A DNA stretch of 38,917 nucleotides from NCBI GenBank assembly GCA_903907925.1, contig CAIVQB010000009.1, forward strand, positions 1-38,917. Direction: 5' to 3'. This stretch comes from an uncultured Verrucomicrobiota bacterium (GTDB taxonomy: Bacteria; Verrucomicrobiota; Verrucomicrobiia; Limisphaerales; UBA9464). The notes beneath the pieces were generated by a model, which did no database searches, had not been told where the DNA came from, and saw nothing but the letters and a program-made list of their open reading frames with translations. Within the stretch, counting starts at the first letter, position 1, and every line of letters starts with the position of its first letter. The translations under genes and the position numbers were made by a program. Positions 7,283 to 25,992 of the stretch are shown piece after piece.

Positions 7283-7527
7283 AAATTGTTCTTGATTTCG
7301 GACGCGCAGCTTCGGCTATAGTCCCACATCGACAAGCTTGCGATTCAAGAAATTGAATTCGAAAAGTGGTTGAGATTCTGCTGGACTACGAGGGCCGAAT
7401 GCGAAAATGCCAGCGCGACCTAGGTGATTCCCTTAGAAGCTCTAGGGTTGGCGGCGAAAGAGGAAAGCTGTTAGTGGTAAGTCGGTACGGCGAGCGAGGT
7501 GCTAAAGTTGGATTTGGAAGTTTTTTT

Positions 7528-8247
7528 ATGAACTTGAAAACAACAGTCGGAATCGTCTTGGGTGCGGCAGCGATCGCGTTGCCGGTGTCGGCACAGCTGT
7601 TTACGGAGAACTACGATGTGACGTCGGGTGCCCCGATCGGTGGGTCGGGACAGCTGGGCCCATCTTCTGCTGGCGCCGGTAGTTATGGGTTTTTCTTCAC
7701 GCCGACGGCCAACCTGACGCTCACTGAAATCGGGATTTTTGACCTCGGCGGTTTCAGCAGCGGCACGGCGAGGGTTGAGCTGTGGGCGCAGGGTGGAGTG
7801 ACTCCCGTTGACTCTTTGACGGCAAACCTCAGCGATGCCGGCAGTGGTGGTGATGGCAATGCGAACTTCGAATACATCCACTACAACGGTTTTTCGGACT
7901 CCCTGACTTCAGGGGTTCAATATGCCCTGATCTGGCGAGACTTCGCTGGTGGGAATGGTAACCCGGCTACGGCTCAATATCTGGGTGCCAAGGATGGCAG
8001 CACTGATCCGAGTTCCTTGGTGACGACGGCCTCGTATGCGATCACCCTCGACCACAAGTTCTCGCATCTGGGTCTGGGTCTCACGGGCAGTCCGTTTATC
8101 GATTTTGCGTCCATTGCTGCCTATTCGACGCCCAACTTGAGCGTGAACATGACGCTGGCTGCTGCCGTTCCTGAGCCCAGCACCTACGCTGCGATCTCCG
8201 GTCTCGGGCTGTTGGGCTTCGCGGCCCTCCGCCGTTTCCGCCGCTAA
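7528..8247 (+). CDS. PEP-CTERM anchored secreted protein
   Basis: A 239-residue exported protein. The start at 7528 is supported by GGAAG eight bases upstream and an immediate signal peptide (MNLKTTVGIVLGAAAIAL, cleavage near VSAQ); the frame runs back to 7366 but the extension is not export-like. The body is rich in Gly, Ser and Thr and looks beta-sandwich-like. The C-terminus carries VPEPSTYA, a hydrophobic stretch and RRFRR, which is the PEP-CTERM sorting signal recognised by an exosortase. A terminator follows at once. It lies next to glycosyltransferase genes, which fits the known pairing of PEP-CTERM proteins with exopolysaccharide production. The specific function is unknown. Confidence 0.88.
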   Translation: MNLKTTVGIVLGAAAIALPVSAQLFTENYDVTSGAPIGGSGQLGPSSAGAGSYGFFFTPTANLTLTEIGIFDLGGFSSGTARVELWAQGGVTPVDSLTANLSDAGSGGDGNANFEYIHYNGFSDSLTSGVQYALIWRDFAGGNGNPATAQYLGAKDGSTDPSSLVTTASYAITLDHKFSHLGLGLTGSPFIDFASIAAYSTPNLSVNMTLAAAVPEPSTYAAISGLGLLGFAALRRFRR

Positions 8248-14257: not shown

Positions 14258-14298
14258 CCCGAGGATCCGCCCCGACGTTGGTCCAACTTCCTCCTGAA

Positions 14299-15189
14299 AT
14301 GCGCATGAAAACGAATCCCACCTCCTCGCGGCTCTCCCTCCTTGCTGCGATCGGCCTTGCGACCTCGGTGCCGGCCTGGGCGACGTACATGAACATCACG
14401 GACTGCCCCTATTGCCAGACCTTTGATACGCTGGCGAAGACGGGTACGGCGACGTGGCAGAACGACATGAGCGGGGCCACGGGTTGGTTCATCCAGTCCA
14501 CCGGATCGATCAGCGGCGGCGGCTCGGGCCTCACCTACACCGCGGACGCCGGGTCAACCTCCGCGGTCGGCGTTTATTCCTACGGATCGAGCGGCTCGTC
14601 GACGGATCGTGCCGTGGGAGCCATCACGGGTGGCACCGGCGCGACGTCCATCGCCTTCGGCAATCTCGTCTACAACAACACCGGCAACACCGTCACCTCC
14701 CTGACGATCACCTACAACGGCGAACAATGGCGGTCGGCGAACACCTCCGCTCAAAGTCTTCAATTCAGCTACGCGGTTGCCGCCGGTCTTTCCGGAAAGT
14801 TTTACGATGTCGATGGAGTCGGCGCCAAAGCCTATCTCTCGCCCGGGATCGTTTCTGGATCGGATGCCACGGGTGACAACAAGGGCCTGACGTGGAATGC
14901 GGTTTCGGCTGGCAATTTTAACGCGCCAAACCTGACCGGCTCGGGCGCGATCGCGGGCGGTGCCAGTACGGCGATCAACATCACGCTGACCGGACTCAAC
15001 ATTCCGTCGGGCTCGGCGATCATGCTGCGCTGGTTGGATGTCTCCGGGCAAACCGACGGACTCGGCATCGACAACGTTTGTGTTTCCGTTCCGGTTCCCG
15101 AACCCAGCACCTACGCCGCCGCGGCTGCGGTTGTGCTGATGGCCGGTCAGGCCGCCTGGCGCCGCCGCAAGGTGGCTGCCAAGAAGTAG
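14299..15189 (+). CDS. PEP-CTERM anchored secreted protein
   Basis: A 296-residue exported protein from the ATG at 14299 (ATG 14305 and TTG 14278 are alternatives; no start has a good ribosome-binding site). The signal peptide is RLSLLAAIGLATSVPAWA. The mature region begins with CPYC and FDTLAKTGTATW, and continues as a Gly/Ser/Thr-rich beta fold seen in the N-terminal part of many verrucomicrobial autotransporter-like and PEP-CTERM proteins. The C-terminus has VPVPEPSTYAA, a hydrophobic span and WRRRK, the exosortase sorting signal. No enzyme motif is visible. It shares only its tail with the PEP-CTERM protein at 7528. Confidence 0.87.
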   Translation: MRMKTNPTSSRLSLLAAIGLATSVPAWATYMNITDCPYCQTFDTLAKTGTATWQNDMSGATGWFIQSTGSISGGGSGLTYTADAGSTSAVGVYSYGSSGSSTDRAVGAITGGTGATSIAFGNLVYNNTGNTVTSLTITYNGEQWRSANTSAQSLQFSYAVAAGLSGKFYDVDGVGAKAYLSPGIVSGSDATGDNKGLTWNAVSAGNFNAPNLTGSGAIAGGASTAINITLTGLNIPSGSAIMLRWLDVSGQTDGLGIDNVCVSVPVPEPSTYAAAAAVVLMAGQAAWRRRKVAAKK

Positions 15190-17034: not shown

Positions 17035-17111
17035 GTTGCGACGACTCAAGGCGGTTCCCCGGGCTGCTCTCCGGGCTCGCCTTGACGCCGTACCCTGTTG
17101 ACGCTGCCGCC

Positions 17112-17876
17112 ATGGCACAGGACGACATCGTTACCGGGATGCAGGAACACTACGCGGCGCACCTGGCCCCGATCTACACGTGGATGGTGGGCGACGTGGA
17201 CGCCGCCCTGGAACGCTCACGAGAATTGCTGTCGAAGGCTGGAGTCCTGGGAGCGTCGGCCGCCGGGCTCGGAAAGCAGGCGATCGATCTGGGATGCGGA
17301 TTCGGCCTGCAGAGCCTTCCGCTGGCGGAGGCGGGCTATGCCGTGGTGAGCATCGATCTTTCGGCGGAACTCCTGGCGGAACTTGAGCGTCGCCGGGGAC
17401 CTCATGCCATCCGCACGGTGCTCGCGGACCTCCGCGATTTTCCCGCACACGTCGCGACGCCGGTGGAGGTGATCACCTGCCTCGGCGATACGTTGACGCA
17501 CATGCCTGATCGCGAGTCGGTGGACGATCTCCTGGGAGCGATGAGCCGGGCACTGGTACCGGGCGGGAAGATGCTTTTGGGGTTTCGCGATTTCCATTCG
17601 GTGGAACTCAAGGGTGTGGATCGGATCATTCCGGTGCGAAGTGATGCGGACCGCATCCTGACCTGCCTTCTGGAGTACGAAACCGGGCGGGTGGCCGTTA
17701 CCGATCTCGTACACGAGCGAACCCTGACCGGGTGGCGGCAGCGGGCGAGCCGCTATTGGAAGCTGCGCCTCGATCCGGACCAGATGATTCAGCGGATCGA
17801 ATCTGTTGGGCTCAAACTCGAGTCGAAAAGCGTGGAGCGGGGAATGGTCACGCTGGCGGCCTGTCGCAAGCAGTGA
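17112..17876 (+). CDS. Class I SAM-dependent methyltransferase
   Basis: A 254-residue Rossmann-fold methyltransferase from the ATG at 17112; the open frame also allows a TTG at 17082 that adds ten residues. The SAM-binding motif I is AIDLGCGFGLQSLPLAEAGY followed by the acidic strand VVSIDLS. The post-motif region VEVITCLGDTLTHMPDRESV and the LVPGGKMLLGFRDF strand fit the methyltransferase_11/25 type. There is no signal peptide. The substrate cannot be told. It stands alone between the leuC terminator and the DUF2721 gene, 86 bases before the latter. Confidence 0.85.
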   Translation: MAQDDIVTGMQEHYAAHLAPIYTWMVGDVDAALERSRELLSKAGVLGASAAGLGKQAIDLGCGFGLQSLPLAEAGYAVVSIDLSAELLAELERRRGPHAIRTVLADLRDFPAHVATPVEVITCLGDTLTHMPDRESVDDLLGAMSRALVPGGKMLLGFRDFHSVELKGVDRIIPVRSDADRILTCLLEYETGRVAVTDLVHERTLTGWRQRASRYWKLRLDPDQMIQRIESVGLKLESKSVERGMVTLAACRKQ

Positions 17877-19417: not shown

Positions 19418-19503
19418 GCGCGACGCTAAGAGCGCGCCTGAAACCATTCAAACTAAACCACGCCGGACACCGACGGAGACGACTCGCAGTACCCGCGAAC
19501 CGA

Positions 19504-19590
19504 TCCCAATCGATCACACCCTCCAAAACCCACCAGACCTCTGCAAACACGGCTTCTTCTTCAACATGGCCACGTCAACGTCCGTACCGT
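19504..19590 (+). repeat. Diverged direct repeat, left copy, flanking the Tudor-knot gene
   Basis: These 87 bases match 21047-21132 in the same orientation at roughly 75-80% by eye with one gap. Shared blocks include TCCCAATCG, TGCAAACAC, CTTCTTCAAC, and a TGTCAA/CGTCAA-type end before CCG. The copy ends 57 bases before the Tudor-knot gene. Confidence 0.65.
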
Positions 19591-19647
19591 TTGGCAATGT
19601 GATCCCGCACCCTTGCGTTTTGTCGGATTCTGAAGAGTCATTATCGC

Positions 19648-20586
19648 GTGACCAAACGGATCGCCCTTTCCCGCCTGCTGACGGCCTGGATCATCATCGA
19701 AACGGCCGTCTCGCTCCGCGTCCAGGCCCGCGCCGCGGAGGTGGGTCCGCCCAAGGTCGGCGAAGTCCTCGAGGTCAAGGACACGGCCGGCGTGTGGTAC
19801 AAATCAACGGTCCTGAAGATCGATGGCGAAAAACGATTCATCCATTACGAAGGCTGGTCCGACACCTGGAACGAATGGGTGATGCCTGACCGCGTCCGGC
19901 CCATCGCGATCGCCCCGATCCCCGCCGTGCTCGGTGCCCCCGTGGTCGGCGAATTGATCGACGCCAAGGATAAGGGCGGCGGTTGGTACAAGGCCACGGT
20001 GCTCAAGATCGACGGCGACAAGCGTTTCATCCACTACGATGGATACAACGACACTTGGGACGAGTGGCTCGGACCGGACCACGTCAAGCCGAGGGGAACA
20101 CCGGCGCCCGCCGATGTGGCCGCGGGCGCGGGTGCCGCCCCGAAGAGTGTGGAACGTCCCAGGAATCTGACCTATCCGACAACCCTTGGCGTGCCCAAGG
20201 TCGGCGAGGTCCTGAAGGCCCGTGACAGGCAGGGACAATGGTATCTGGCGACCGTCCTGCAAGTGGACGGCGAAAAGAGGTTTGTGCACTTCCACGGTTG
20301 GGGCGACGGCGACAACGAATGGGTTGCGTCCGACGCCGTGAAACCGCTGACGGCTTCCGAGGCGGCCGCAGCCAGCACGAAACACACGCTCGATGGATGG
20401 TTCGCCAAGACAGAGATTGTCTTCTTTGGAGGCGCCCATATCCGAAGCACCCATTATGGTTCCGACCCGACGGAGGCGTCTATTTCGGGACTCCTCCGGC
20501 CGGCCTGGGCGACGGCGATTTCGCCGCGCTGCAGAAATCCGATCCCGGCAATTGCGGGACCTACGAACTGGTGGGCCGGCAATTGA
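19648..20586 (+). CDS. Secreted protein with three Tudor-knot/chromo-barrel-like repeats (frameshifted)
   Basis: The frame opens at GTG 19648 with a signal-peptide-like start (RLLTAWIIIETAVSLRVQA). Three tandem repeats follow at about residues 33-86, 96-149 and 181-233. Each has VGE(V/L)(L/I), an aromatic pair (WYK or WYL), TVLxxDGxKRFxH, and an aromatic cluster ending in EWV or EWL, for example FIHYEGWSDTWNEWV. This is the pattern of the Tudor-knot/chromo-barrel fold of eukaryotic MRG15 and MOF, an aromatic-cage peptide-binding module. In phase, the frame should continue into YWFRPDGGVYFG, but one base (a T between 20457 and 20458) is missing, so residues after about 270 are out of frame and stop at 20586. 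It is flanked by direct repeats. What it binds is unknown. Confidence 0.72.
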   Translation: MTKRIALSRLLTAWIIIETAVSLRVQARAAEVGPPKVGEVLEVKDTAGVWYKSTVLKIDGEKRFIHYEGWSDTWNEWVMPDRVRPIAIAPIPAVLGAPVVGELIDAKDKGGGWYKATVLKIDGDKRFIHYDGYNDTWDEWLGPDHVKPRGTPAPADVAAGAGAAPKSVERPRNLTYPTTLGVPKVGEVLKARDRQGQWYLATVLQVDGEKRFVHFHGWGDGDNEWVASDAVKPLTASEAAAASTKHTLDGWFAKTEIVFFGGAHIRSTHYGSDPTEASISGLLRPAWATAISPRCRNPIPAIAGPTNWWAGN

Positions 20587-21038
20587 CCCTGATCAAAAAC
20601 GGCGGGGAGCCCGAGGAACATACCTACAGTCCCGGCGCCGGCGGTGTCATGGACAGCAGCCCCCTCTCGCACGTCTATCGTTTCCGGCCCGGTGCCCGTC
20701 TTGAGGGGACTTGGGAAGTCAGTACGTCCAGCAACTTCGGCGGCGTCAGCGCAGTGGGCGCCAATACCTGGAACTTCCACAAGGATGGCACCGTCGAACA
20801 CACGACGTTCGGCGGAGTGGAAACCACCAAAACAAAAGGGATCGACGGTGCTGCGCCCGGACAGGCTCTGGGCCAGACAACCGCGATTGCCCGCGGAACC
20901 TACGACTTCGTCGGCGGAAAACTGATTGTGACCGGTGCCGATGGAATGACCGAGGCCCATTCCGCATCGGCTACGGACTCCGAGGAAAAACCACGCATTC
21001 TCAATATCGACGGTTCGGATCTGAACCAGACCCGATAG
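20458..21038 (+). pseudogene. Out-of-phase 3' half of the Tudor-knot gene
   Basis: This part continues the gene that starts at 19648, in the frame shifted by minus one. It reads FRPDGGVYFGTPPAGLGDGD, then NCGTYELVGRQLTLIKNGGE and FRPGARLEGTWEVSTSSNFG, a beta-rich lipocalin- or META-like region of about 190 residues ending at TGA/TAG 21038. Inserting one T at 20457/20458 rejoins both parts into one product of about 463 residues. No slippery heptamer for programmed frameshifting is present, so this is either a real inactivating deletion or a sequencing error; the reading is otherwise intact, which favours a recent event or an error. Confidence 0.68.
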
Positions 21039-21046
21039 GTGGACGC

Positions 21047-21132
21047 TCCCAATCGCTCACTCCTCGAACCTTCACCGGACCTTTGCAAACACTGCACCTT
21101 CTTCAACGTTGCCCTGTCAATGTCCGGACCGT
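21047..21132 (+). repeat. Diverged direct repeat, right copy, flanking the Tudor-knot gene
   Basis: This is the right-hand partner of 19504-19590, in the same orientation and starting 8 bases after the stop of the Tudor-knot reading frame. The best-matching core is TTTGCAAACACTGC and CTTCTTCAACGTTG. Together the pair brackets the gene as an island of about 1.6 kb. Confidence 0.65.
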
Positions 21133-21165
21133 TGTGGGACTGACCAACTTGCTCCGGGATTTCAG

Positions 21166-21192
21166 TTGACCGTTAAATTACACATGTAATAT
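21166..21192 (+). promoter_or_regulatory. Candidate promoter with a 14-bp dyad
   Basis: TTGACC at 21166-21171 and TAATAT at 21187-21192 resemble -35 and -10 boxes with a 15-base spacer, short of ideal. The -10 overlaps a dyad, ATTACA-CA-TGTAAT at 21177-21190, which could be an operator. The next ATG is at 21202, so a transcript from here would be nearly leaderless. Confidence 0.35.
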
Positions 21193-21201
21193 TAAGCGGC
21201 G

Positions 21202-21489
21202 ATGATGACACCAACACCGAGGTTGCGGGTACCGATTGAGGTCAATCGGCTGAATGGATTCTTCTACTCGCTCAGTGAAGATCCGGGCGGAGATATTTAC
21301 ATGGAACTCAGACGTCGATCGAACGATGGTGATCCTGAGTTTCGGTTCCTGCCGACCGAGAAGGTTGACCTCCGGGACAGCTATCGGCAGCCGACTGCTT
21401 CCGAATTCGTTCGGGAATTCGGGGTTCCTCCCAACCGAGGCCGCAGGAGTCCCGAAACAGGCTTGTTTAACCGTTTTGTCTCGGCGTAG
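21202..21489 (+). CDS. Small hypothetical protein
   Basis: A 95-residue open frame that I do not recognise. It is hydrophilic, with no signal peptide or membrane span. The middle (FFYSLSEDPGGDIYMELRRR) and FRFLPTEKVDLRDSY could be a small beta-rich fold, and the C-terminal part is Arg/Pro-rich. A promoter-like sequence lies just upstream, and no longer frame competes on either strand, so it may be real. The base composition of this stretch and the 145 bases after it is visibly less GC-rich than the neighbouring housekeeping genes. Confidence 0.4.
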   Translation: MMTPTPRLRVPIEVNRLNGFFYSLSEDPGGDIYMELRRRSNDGDPEFRFLPTEKVDLRDSYRQPTASEFVREFGVPPNRGRRSPETGLFNRFVSA

Positions 21490-21634
21490 CGGTGAAGCGT
21501 TATCGCTTTCCAAGACAAAAGGACTGGAGTTTTCTAGGCTTGGCCAATTCCAGAGCGCTTAGTTGCCTTAGAAAGTCGAAAAGGGTTCGGTCCTCCCTAA
21601 TGACACTTTTTGTGCGACGGAAGGGCCTCAATGG

Positions 21635-22564
21635 TCATTTTTCCGCGGTGGCCAGGAGGGTCTCGAAATGCGGGGGTTGTTCCTCGCGGGCGACGACGCT
21701 TACCTCGATGTTGCGAAACCCGGCGGATTCCAGCCAACGGTGCAGGTCCGCCTCCTCGAATCCCAGCCAGCGGTCGCCGTAAAGTTCCTGAGCCTGGGTG
21801 AAGGTATGACGGAGCAAATCGAGGACGATGATGCGTCCACCGGCCTTGAGAATCCGGTGCGCACCGAGGATGGTCTTCTGGGGATCCTCCGCGTGGTGCA
21901 ACGCCTGGCTGAGGATTACCAAGTCGACGGAGGCGTCATCAATGGGCGGGTTGGACAGGTCGCCGAGGCGGAATTCGAGGTTCTTGAGACCGTTCTTCCG
22001 GGCCTTGCGTGCGCCGAATTCGACCATCTTTTCGGAGTTGTCGACTGCGATTACCTGATGGCAGCTCCGGGCGAGCAGTTCGGCGAGGAGTCCTTCGCCG
22101 GAACCGAGATCGGCAACCACCAGCGGCGGGAGGATGCGCAACAGGAGATGCCCAAAGGCCTGCCAGGAACGGCCCGGTCCGTAGCTGCGGTCGAACCGGC
22201 CGGCCACTTGATTGAAATAGACCTGGGCCTGCTCGTCCCGCAGGGCCACGACCCGCCGGCGGTTGAGCTGGTCCCGTTCGTGTTCGGGTAATTCGGCCGC
22301 GCCTTGAACGGCCAGTTCGACGAGTCGGCGACCTTCCGGGGCCTTGTCGGGCTGGAGCCGGTAGTAGGTGCGTTTCCCCTCGCGCCGCGCGGCGACGATG
22401 CGGGTCTCGCTCAGCAAACCGAGGTGGGTCGAGATGCGTGACTGGGCGAGCTTGGTGATTTCCTGGAGCTCGGCGACCGACAACTCACCTTCTTCCAGCA
22501 ACGCCACGATGCGCAGCCGGGTCGGATCGGCGAGTGCTCGGAGGGATTTGAGGGTCGCTGGCAC
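21635..22564 (-). CDS. ArsR-family regulator fused to a SAM-dependent methyltransferase
   Basis: A 309-residue two-domain protein. I place the start at GTG 22564, because the family begins at PATLKSLRALADPTRLRIV; the frame runs open to 22759 but the extra residues look untranslated. Residues 1-90 form an ArsR winged helix (LADPTRLRIVALLEEGELSV, LAQSRISTHLGLL, REGKRTYYRL). Residues ~120-309 form a class I methyltransferase with VVADLGSGEGLLAELLA, VIAVDNSEKMVEFGARKA and LVILSQALHHAEDP. It is divergent from metK-ahcY. ArsR-type regulators of the SAM cycle (SahR, SamR) are known in Proteobacteria, so a SAM or SAH-sensing repressor of metK is the natural hypothesis, with the methyltransferase fold as effector pocket. 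Confidence 0.85.
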   Translation of the reverse strand: MPATLKSLRALADPTRLRIVALLEEGELSVAELQEITKLAQSRISTHLGLLSETRIVAARREGKRTYYRLQPDKAPEGRRLVELAVQGAAELPEHERDQLNRRRVVALRDEQAQVYFNQVAGRFDRSYGPGRSWQAFGHLLLRILPPLVVADLGSGEGLLAELLARSCHQVIAVDNSEKMVEFGARKARKNGLKNLEFRLGDLSNPPIDDASVDLVILSQALHHAEDPQKTILGAHRILKAGGRIIVLDLLRHTFTQAQELYGDRWLGFEEADLHRWLESAGFRNIEVSVVAREEQPPHFETLLATAEK

Positions 22565-22726
22565 CCCGGCAGGATAAGAGCCTGTCTGAAAATGGGGAAG
22601 GATCCTGTTTTTGGGGCGGCACTGGCGGATCGACTGGGACGGCCGTGAGCGGGCGTTCCCTCGTTTCAGGCCGGCAACCCACGAATCACCTCGTCCGTTC
22701 TGCCCCATTTTTCTCCAAAATCGGCA

Positions 22727-22768
22727 TTGACCCCTTTGTTTGTTTTCGTATCGTCGCATCCAGATACG
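22727..22768 (+). promoter_or_regulatory. Candidate metK promoter with overlapping operator
   Basis: TTGACC at 22727-22732 and TATCGT at 22749-22754 make a plausible promoter with a 16-base spacer. The inverted repeat CGTATC at 22747-22752 and GATACG at 22763-22768, with a 10-base spacer, covers the -10 box and start point, where a repressor would block transcription. It lies in the divergent region shared with the ArsR-methyltransferase gene, which makes that protein the best candidate to bind it. Confidence 0.42.
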
Positions 22769-22824
22769 TAAATATGTTGGTCGTCTGATCGGTTCAATTC
22801 ACTCCGTTTTAACCAGAAAACTTC

Positions 22825-24006
22825 ATGAGCAAGCGTTTCATTTTCTCTTCCGAATCCGTCGGTGAAGGGCATCCGGACAAGGTGGCTGACACGATTTCCG
22901 ACGCAGTGTTGGACGCCTGTCTGACGCAGGACAAATACAGCCGGGTCGCCTGCGAAACCTACGTGAAGTCGAACGTCGCCATCGTCGGCGGCGAGATCAC
23001 CACGAAAGCCAAGCTCGACTACGTCAAGATCACGCGCGACGCGATCCGCGAGATCGGTTACGTGAACGACGACGACGTGTTCCACGCCGACAAGGTGTTC
23101 GTGAATCTGCTCATCACCCAGCAGTCGCCCGACATCGCCCAGGGCGTCGATGCCAAGGCTGCCAAGGGCAAGAAGAAGGCCGAGCAGGGTGCTGGAGACC
23201 AGGGCCTGATGTTCGGTTACGCGTGCAATGAGACGCCGGAATTGATGCCGACGCCGATCATGTTCGCCCATCGGCTGGGCCGGGAACTCACCCGCATCCG
23301 CAAGGCCGGCAAGCTGGCCAAGTGGCTCCGCCCGGATGCCAAGTCGCAGGTTTCGGTCGTGTATGAAGACGACAAGCCGGTTTCGATTTCCAACGTTGTC
23401 ATCTCCACCCAGCACGCCGCCAACGTCGAGCACGCCTTGATCGAGGAGTTCTGCATCGAGCAGATCATCAAGAAGGTTCTGCCGAAGGACATGCTGACCA
23501 AGGACACACAGTTCCTCATCAATCCGACCGGCAATTTCGTGGTGGGTGGACCTCAAGGCGACACCGGCCTGACCGGACGCAAGATCATCGTCGACAGCTA
23601 CGGTGGCTGGGGCCGTCACGGTGGCGGTGCCTTCTCCGGCAAGGATCCGAGCAAGGTGGACCGCAGCGCCGCGTACATGGGCCGCTACGTCGCCAAAAAC
23701 ATCGTGGCTGCCGGTTTTGCGACCCACGCTGAAATCCAGTTTGCCTATGCCATCGGTTATCCCGATCCCGTCAGCGTGTATGTCAGCACCTTCGGCACGG
23801 CCCGCGAAGGCCTCACCGATCAGGCCATCACCGACGCGGTGCAGAAGGTTTTCAGCTTCAAGCCCGCCGACATCGTCAAGCAGCTCAACCTGCTCCGCCC
23901 GATCTACGGCAAGACCACCAACTACGGTCACTTCGGCAAGATCGACGCTGATCTCCCGTGGGAAGTGACCGACAAGGTGGCCGCGCTGAAGAAGGCCATA
24001 AAGTAA
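22825..24006 (+). CDS. metK: S-adenosylmethionine synthetase
   Basis: MetK makes S-adenosylmethionine from methionine and ATP. The 393-residue product has [20 protein letters not shown] at the start, the hexapeptide GAGDQG of the ATP site, [17 protein letters not shown] and the phosphate loop [19 protein letters not shown]. Length is standard. A Lys/Ala-rich insertion ([10 protein letters not shown]) sits before GAGDQG. It is followed by ahcY with the four-helix-bundle element between them; the element's terminal repeat begins at the base after the TAA. Control is probably by the divergent ArsR-methyltransferase. Confidence 0.97.
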
Positions 24007-24479
24007 GTTTTCAGTTTTCGGTTTTCAGTTTTCGGCGAGCCGTGACGCGCGGCTTGCCGAACTGAAAACTGAAAACAGTAAACCGAAAACTCAATCGATG
24101 GCCTTTCAGTCCTTTGAAGAACTTGAAGTTTGGAAGAGAGGCTGCCGGCTCGCTGTGGAAGTGAATCGCGCGCTGGCCGATTCGAAGGAGTACGCGCTGC
24201 GTGACCAGATGATCCGGGCGTCGATCTCGATTCCGTCCAACATCGCCGAAGGGCACGAACGCGACAGCAGGCTCGATTTCATTCGTTTTCTTCGGATTGC
24301 CAAAGGCTCGGCCGCTGAATTGCGAACCCAGCTTTACATTGCCCAACGACTCTCGGTCCTCCCCAAAGAACAAATCGAGATGCTCATTCAAGAGACCCGA
24401 GAATTGTGTCCGATGCTGCAGGCGTTGATCCGCTCGCTGCGCCCCGTTCCCGCCCCGCTGAAAACCGAAAACTGAAAAC
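24007..24479 (+). mobile_element. TIR-bounded element carrying a four-helix-bundle gene
   Basis: A 473-bp unit with perfect 22-bp inverted ends built from GTTTTC words: 24007-24028 reads GTTTTCAGTTTTCGGTTTTC plus AG, and 24458-24479 is its exact complement. A third copy of the GAAAAC run at 24061-24090 pairs with the left end, forming a long hairpin at 24007-24090 with GGCGAGCCG/CGGCTTGCC at its tip. The unit starts at the base after the metK stop and ends 10 bases before the ahcY ATG. It encodes no transposase. Similar repeat-flanked four-helix-bundle genes are scattered in many bacteria, which suggests mobility. Confidence 0.72.
24098..24475 (+). CDS. Four-helix-bundle protein (23S rRNA intervening-sequence/Avd-like)
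   Basis: A 125-residue protein of the four-helix-bundle family first found in 23S rRNA intervening sequences and related to Avd, the accessory protein of diversity-generating retroelements. Motifs are [57 protein letters not shown] and the C-terminal helix. Its last codons (APLKTEN) are encoded by the right terminal repeat of the surrounding element. The ATG at 24098 lies eight bases after a long hairpin and has no clear ribosome-binding site. No reverse transcriptase or rRNA gene is in the window. Its role is unknown; members are thought to bind nucleic acid as pentamers. Confidence 0.9.
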
Positions 24480-24489
24480 CGAATACTTT

Positions 24490-25992
24490 ATGGCCAAGCC
24501 CAAACTCAAACCCGCCGCCGCCGCCGTCCTCGCCGAGGTCGGATCCGCCACCGCCAACCTCACCCTGTTGTCCGCGCAGACTCCCGCCGGCAAGGATTAC
24601 ATCGTCCGCGACATCGGCCTGGCCGAGTGGGGTCGCAAGGAAATCGCCGTCGCCGAGCACGAGATGCCCGGCCTGATGTCGGTCCGGAAAAAGTACGCCA
24701 AGCGGAAGCCGCTCAAGGGCGTTCGCATCACCGGTTCGCTGCACATGACCATCCAGACGGCGGTCCTGATCGAGACCCTCGTCGAACTGGGCGCGTCAGT
24801 CCGCTGGGCCAGCTGCAACATTTTCTCGACCCAGGACCACGCCGCCTCGGCCATCGCCGCCACCGGCACCCCGGTGTTTGCCTGGAAAGGCGAATCGCTC
24901 GAGGAATATTGGGAACTGACCCTGAAGGCCGTGATTCATCCCGGTGACACGGGTCCCGAACTCGTCGTCGACGACGGCGGCGACGTCACGCTGTTGATCC
25001 ACAAGGGCTATGAACTCGAGAAGGGTGACACTTGGGTCAACACCAAGAGCGGTTCCCACGAGGAACAAGTCATCAAGAATCTCCTCAAACGGGTTGCCAA
25101 GGAGAAGCCCGGCATCTGGACCAAGATCGTCAAGGCTTGGAAGGGTGTCTCCGAAGAGACCACCACCGGTGTTCACCGGCTCTACAAGTTCGCCGAGCAG
25201 GGCAAGCTGCTGGTGCCCGCCATCAACGTGAACGACTCGGTCACCAAGTCGAAGTTCGACAATCTCTACGGCTGCCGCGAATCGCTGGCGGACGGACTCA
25301 AGCGCGCCACCGACGTCATGATTGCCGGCAAGGTCGCCGTGGTCTGCGGCTACGGTGATGTCGGCAAGGGCAGCGCTCACTCGCTCCGTGCCTACGGAGC
25401 CCGCGTGGTGGTCACTGAAATCGATCCGATCAACGCGCTGCAGGCGGCGATGGAAGGCTTCGAGGTCAATACCATCGAGAGCACGCTCGGAACCGGCGAC
25501 ATCTACGTCACCACCACCGGCAACTGCGACATCATCACCGTGGATCACATCCTCAAGATGAAGGACCAGGCGATCGTTTGTAACATCGGCCACTTCGACA
25601 ACGAGATCCAGGTCGACAAGCTCAAGGCCGCCAAGGGCGTGACCATCGAGAACATCAAGCCGCAGTACGACCGCTATTATCTCCCCGGCAACAAGAGCAT
25701 CTATCTGCTCGCCGAAGGCCGCCTGGTGAACCTCGGTTGCGCCACCGGCCATCCGTCGTTCGTGATGTCCAATTCCTTCACCAACCAGACGCTCGCGCAG
25801 CTCGATCTCTGGGCGAACAAAGACACCTACGAGAGGACGGTCTATCGTCTGCCCAAGAAGCTCGATGAGGAAGTCGCCCGCCTGCATCTGGAGAAAATCG
25901 GCGTCGTGCTGACCAAGCTGACCAAGTCCCAGGCCGAATACCTCGGCGTCCCGGCGGACGGCCCCTACAAGCCGGAACACTACCGCTACTAA
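24490..25992 (+). CDS. ahcY: Adenosylhomocysteinase
   Basis: S-adenosylhomocysteine hydrolase, the NAD-dependent enzyme that splits SAH to adenosine and homocysteine and keeps methyltransferases active. The 500-residue product from the ATG at 24490 has [50 protein letters not shown], the NAD loop [20 protein letters not shown] and the tail KPEHYRY. It includes the roughly 40-residue insertion of the long bacterial form. The frame extends to 24406, but this would run through the element's terminal repeat. It forms the SAM-cycle operon with metK. Confidence 0.97.

Follow-up and report, generated by a model that had tools for sequence, protein, structure and literature searches.

A tandem Tudor/chromo-barrel array with a weakly lipocalin-like partner domain in exported-looking proteins of Verrucomicrobia, frame-broken in one assembly

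What would an exported bacterial protein do with a row of repeats resembling the chromo-barrels of eukaryotic chromatin proteins? The question is raised by positions 19648-21038 of the window, the 38,917-nucleotide stretch of Verrucomicrobiota DNA analyzed here, which belongs to a genome of 4.6 Mb in 148 contigs. The original prediction placed a single secreted protein there, with three tandem Tudor-knot repeats of about 53 residues each followed by a C-terminal beta-rich domain. The tandem repeats are indeed present, occupying 19741-20346 on the plus strand (the strand of all features of the gene and of the direct repeats described below). Repeat 1 spans 19741-19902, repeat 2 spans 19930-20091 and repeat 3 spans 20185-20346. 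Their pairwise identity is 54-63%, and the pairs reach local alignment scores of 213, 193 and 173; the highest values obtained from 2000 shuffles of each pair were 49, 45 and 52.

Profiles, the sequences of solved structures and fold comparison all support the predicted Tudor-knot/chromo-barrel assignment. Four Pfam families match the window protein above their cut-offs: Agenet (6.4e-12), Tudor-knot (4.8e-10), MSL3_chromo-like (2.4e-9) and MBT (4.8e-8). The Tudor-knot and agenet families, which the original prediction had singled out as a check, both pass, with Agenet (PF05641; 46.2 bits, cut-off 27) scoring slightly above Tudor-knot (PF11717; 39.6 bits, cut-off 20.8). Scanned alone, repeat 1 remains below both cut-offs (Tudor-knot 18.8 bits, Agenet 23.6 bits), and NCBIfam returned no match above cut-off. 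Six homologous proteins together contain 15 repeats, 14 of which we assembled for comparison across the family, excluding the second repeat of the homologue L009 owing to a shortened loop; scanned singly, every one of the 14 matches Tudor-knot at E up to 0.1.

Searched against the PDB with phmmer, the window protein recovered L3MBTL3 with the lowest whole-sequence E-value (8.5e-10, summed over three modules and with no strong single stretch), and also PHF20L1, Eaf3 and MRG proteins. Profile A4, built from the 14 aligned repeats, likewise reached L3MBTL3 (1.3e-17, summed over modules), MRG2 (7.4e-11), Eaf3 and PHF20L1. The MBT repeats of L3MBTL1 and L3MBTL3 are however longer and form a fixed three-leaved propeller, whereas the window repeats span only some 53 residues and are joined by linkers. 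When repeat 1 was the only query, the first Tudor domain of PHF20L1 gave the best single-stretch match (31.4 bits), and no single L3MBTL stretch passed; PHF20L1 is, on the other hand, a eukaryotic protein, in which the Tudor is a single domain within a PHD finger protein architecture.

The closest fold is that of the MRG/Eaf3 chromo-barrels (Eaf3, MRG15 and MRG2). Fold comparison was performed on an AlphaFold model of L006, the closest intact homologue, which stands in for the window protein. This model has a mean pLDDT of 54.3, with the repeats at block values of about 64-85 and an unreliable C-terminus, and displays five strands each in repeats 1 and 2 and four listed in repeat 3. In VIA-align, repeat 1 of L006 superimposes on MRG2 bound to H3K4me3 (4pl6_A) with Z 10.0 and an rmsd of 0.8 A over 53 residues at 32% identity, and on human MRG15 with Z 9.3; best Z values of 7-8 can arise with this method in the absence of a clear relative, a range that Z 10 exceeds, although not by far. 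As the fold matches cover mostly residues 30-89, the fold of repeats 2 and 3 rests mainly on sequence.

The aromatic cage of Eaf3 comprises Tyr23, Tyr81, Trp84 and Trp88, with alanine at each position abolishing binding and W84Y being tolerated (excerpt of PMC7033311). Repeat 1 of the window aligns without gaps to the Y-x-x-W-x-x-x-W stretch of Eaf3, fitting Tyr81, Trp84 and Trp88, while the first cage position, Tyr23, was mapped by its place in the alignment. All four aromatics are complete in repeat 1 (Y, Y, W, W) and in repeat 2 (Y, Y, Y, W), where the third position carries the very change that Eaf3 tolerates; repeat 3 (Y, F, W, D) has lost the fourth. Repeats 1 and 2 of L006 equally keep the complete pattern. 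A fifth cage residue of the MRG proteins, His37 of MRG701 (excerpt of PMC5084153), separates these eukaryotic chromatin proteins from the window repeats, which have the non-aromatic T, K and R there as read by eye. Among the 14 repeats, cage positions 1 to 4 are aromatic in 13, 14, 14 and 9 cases, respectively, and all four are aromatic in eight (the second repeat of L009 being uncounted). The expected conservation among homologues holds for most positions and less so for the fourth. The homologue L010 has no complete repeat, the first lacking position 1 and the others position 4, which counts against a universal cage.

The idea of one protein across 19648-21038 was in contrast not borne out, as the repeats and the C-terminal domain lie in different frames. 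ORF A, found by ORF calling at 19648-20586 (312 aa, with a GTG start at the same place as in L006), encodes a signal-like N-terminus, the three repeats and the beginning of the C-terminal domain (20389-20451, still in frame A in comparison with homologues); its final 45 or so codons, up to the stop at 20586, are out-of-frame read-through. The remaining C-terminal beta-rich domain (20454-21038, with a weak Lipocalin_4 match at about 20700-20978) follows in the other frame, within an ORF of 20238-21038, and reading against L006 and L007 positions the frame break at about 20449-20457. The gene as assembled here hence yields only the repeat half and an out-of-frame tail.

We consider it very probable that this copy is a fresh pseudogene or a sequence with a consensus error, two origins that the assembled sequence does not separate. 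Two relatives from uncultured Verrucomicrobia bacteria, L006 with three repeats in 463 aa and L007 with two in 394 aa, are intact and read through the junction in a single frame; L007 is the same gene as one in genome G001, judged by protein and neighbours (G001:C31). Compared with L006, the repeat part has a dN/dS of about 0.14 (dN 0.126, dS 0.872) and the C-terminal part one of 0.11 (dN 0.117, dS 1.056). With L007 as outgroup, the C-terminal part (193 columns) has accumulated seven residue changes along the lineage of the window and 17 along that of L006, and the repeat part minus repeat 1 has accumulated seven and nine (168 columns); the part behind the break contains no stops. Purifying selection on both halves and the intact homologues thus indicate a break that is either very recent or a consensus error, as does the undecayed state of the part behind it. 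Translational frameshifting is an alternative, with no typical slippery heptamer seen at the junction when the sequence was read by eye. A pseudogene or a consensus error is compatible with either of the functional readings weighed below, and only the intact homologues would then matter functionally.

The C-terminal beta-rich domain of the original prediction stands as a conserved module that is out of frame in the window, its likeness to Lipocalin_4 (PF13648) being weak. The window matches that family at 20.2 and 21.7 bits, under the cut-off of 22.4. Among full-length proteins, L006, L009 and L013 match at E up to 0.01 and L007 and L010 do not, L009 being the only member above the cut-off (23.0 bits). 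When excised, the domain is matched in each of the six members at E up to 1, the lowest value being 1.5e-7. Folded alone, the domain reached a mean pLDDT of 39.7, too low for a fold search (the C-terminal alignment used for modelling had three rows), and its profile gave two PDB matches, best E 0.075, both taken as chance. Judged from these comparisons, the domain would be lipocalin-like only weakly. Its profile, A3, matched strongly in four of 387 genomes of the phylum, each time directly behind the repeats; all four had supplied rows of A3, so that the search mainly shows there to be no further or free-standing copy in the sample. A fifth match, in genome G052 (8.1e-4), was set aside as chance and is not part of this count; from reading, the protein resembles a pyruvate:ferredoxin oxidoreductase.

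At the other end, residues 1-29 (19648-19734) form a hydrophobic, signal-like segment by hydropathy, matched by a helix at residues 2-25 of the L006 model. The 12-residue hydropathy is 1.93-2.61 at the N-termini of the six proteins read, and the version in the window carries a Glu within the hydrophobic stretch. Of the predicted signal peptide and extracytoplasmic action, the hydrophobic N-terminus is retained on the basis of hydropathy, and export appears likely rather than proven. Two more exported-looking proteins are encoded in the window (7366-8247 and 14278-15189), both ending in a PEP-CTERM-like sorting motif.

How widespread is this arrangement? Among 39 genomes, made up of the nearest relatives and the own genome, the same two contain the repeat half and also the C-terminal half. 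In the 387 genomes of the phylum, six match the full-length alignment, eight the repeat profile (four of these having supplied rows of that profile) and three the plain PF11717, which is also matched in one of 14 controls; of these three, the match in G369 lies in a frame of 37 residues interrupted by a stop and was not counted as a gene. The eight repeat-profile genomes hold, from reading and Pfam, four Tudor plus lipocalin-like proteins, two caspase-domain fusions and two FG-GAP proteins, the repeat of the latter (G207 and G219) being detected by A4 and not by Pfam at E 0.01. Three repeats per protein are present in the window protein, L006 and L010, and two in L007, L013 and L009. Outside the phylum, Deinococcus ficus WP_027462321.1, annotated as agenet, is also bacterial and has related repeats, but the match covers only 26% of the query, the repeat part, at 31% identity. 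A search of viral contigs for the repeats gave nine pattern matches and no relative.

The other architectures are of some interest in their own right. L019 and L028 (genomes G351 and G272) are caspase-domain proteins with two C-terminal Tudor/Agenet-like repeats, whereas the exported-looking L011 and L012 (G219 and G207) have one Tudor-like repeat ahead of FG-GAP repeats. A second protein of genome G113, L037 (G113:C53), has two near-identical Tudor-like repeats behind a sub-cut-off carboxypeptidase-regulatory-like match. Fusions to caspase and carboxypeptidase-regulatory domains have already been published for this superfamily (main text of PMC5906684), the caspase architecture for other phyla.

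The gene lies in different genomic settings. In all seven other genomes of the same genus sampled, purC and the ArsR-methyltransferase gene adjoin, with 61-143 bp between the matches, while in the window they are separated by 19448-21634 (edges approximate; the purC start may be 19417). The approximately 2.1 kb carrying the gene is accordingly absent at this place in the seven, and the 2187-bp gap has no blastn match at E 0.001 in their loci. Besides the gene and the two copies of a direct repeat that flank it, the gap contains a further 0.5 kb or so, including an open frame of 95 codons (21202-21489) behind the downstream repeat. Repeat comparison places the 94-nt copies at 19501-19594 and 21044-21137, the latter starting 6 nt behind the stop codon; they are 78% identical across 72 nt and 85% identical across another 20 nt, and their alignment score of 83 compares with at most 28 among 300 shuffles. 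A full third copy was not found in the genome by a search that also missed the known other copy, and which is therefore insensitive at 78% identity. The copies fold no better than shuffled sequence (z 0.32 and -0.01), Rfam has nothing in the window at gathering scores, and the loci of L006 and L007 showed no flanking repeat of this kind. In G001 the gene and purC are on different contigs, and the neighbours of L006 differ again, which places the gene at three different sites in three genomes.

Close to the gene are two methyltransferase genes, one of them ArsR-fused, and genes for SAM synthetase and SAH hydrolase (17082-17876 and 21635-25992). We rejected these SAM-cycle and methyltransferase genes as partners, since the neighbours differ at two homologous loci. 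The genes for SAM synthetase and SAH hydrolase are separated by a small ORF (24098-24475) that resembles four-helix-bundle (23S rRNA intervening sequence) proteins.

For the function of the intact proteins we propose, with about an even chance of being right, a non-enzymatic adaptor that is exported and belongs to the secreted bacterial chromo-like superfamily, in which repeats 1 and 2 hold methylated side chains. With the signal peptide removed, three SH3-like barrels would be displayed outside the cytoplasm, followed by the lipocalin-like beta domain. In repeat 1 and in repeat 2, the four-aromatic cage would accommodate one cationic side chain that is probably methylated; the ligand would be methyl-lysine or a related methylammonium group carried by a surface protein or by a peptide of the matrix, and the array may sum weak single contacts. 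The repeats, their fold relationship, the cage residues, the conserved two-module architecture and the purifying selection are demonstrated, whereas export, the ligand, additive binding and the role of the C-terminal domain are what we infer. Heavily methylated lysines occur on a Gram-negative surface adhesin (excerpt of PMC11784438), and such ligands thus exist outside cells. A FliB-type methylase is matched in two of nine genomes (G000 and G001) and absent in seven, with little bearing on other methylases; as both matches are below cut-off, we claim no methylase partner.

A Tudor fold can also bind nucleic acid or unmodified peptide, and the ligands of the barrels might instead be peptides without modification, material of the cell wall, polysaccharide or nucleic acid outside the cell; the aromatics would then serve mainly to support the fold, with no methyl mark being read. 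This is the less probable of the two readings, if by no means a negligible one: the fourth cage position is non-aromatic in five of the 14 repeats, and the main text of PMC5906684 draws a parallel to bacterial SH3 domains binding cell-wall peptides and allows for nucleic acid binding. It sits less well with the near-invariant aromatics at positions 1 to 3 and with the intact Eaf3 pattern in the first two repeats of both the window and L006. That the repeats clearly resemble chromatin readers of animals, yeast and plants could also indicate recent transfer of such domains from a eukaryote. We regard this as most improbable, given related repeats in other exported-looking Verrucomicrobia proteins and in Deinococcus, an attached C-terminal domain with no significant PDB match, and the argument in the main text of PMC5906684 that the bacterial versions are ancestral. 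Returning to the methyl-binding adaptor, a bolder version is conceivable though doubtful, namely a mobile gene for an extracellular protein-methylation reader, its Tudor array and dedicated lipocalin-like partner occupying three sites in three related genomes and recognizing methylated surface proteins of the same or neighbouring Verrucomicrobia cells.

Exported bacterial Tudor-type repeats are not a new idea, having been published in 2018 (Kaur, Iyer, Subramanian and Aravind; PMC5906684), where the main text reports chromo-like domains of secreted bacterial proteins, arranged as 2-6 tandem copies and endowed with an aromatic cage, and proposes a methyl-lysine-like ligand in murein or matrix. 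The proteins studied here share with those the Tudor-type cage, tandem copies and joining to other extracellular domains, and may have a signal peptide in common with them; they differ in having two or three repeats followed by a conserved Lipocalin_4-like domain. The main text of PMC5906684 mentions neither Verrucomicrobia nor lipocalin, and it was the sole fitting report among the matches listed in the open-access literature, where no report joining chromo-like or agenet domains with Verrucomicrobia was found. A TUDOR-domain protein is named among proteins released by Asaia in an excerpt of PMC12502724, which leaves a tandem array unmentioned.

Aggregated, the locus harbors a real, conserved, exported-looking Tudor array that is frame-broken in this assembly. 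Measured against the main text of the 2018 report, it brings Verrucomicrobia into the secreted bacterial chromo-like superfamily, to which it adds a conserved architecture of Tudor repeats and a lipocalin-like domain. As a single chain that combines two complete cages with a degenerate one, L006 represents a good test protein for the 2018 proposal of methyl reading outside the cell.
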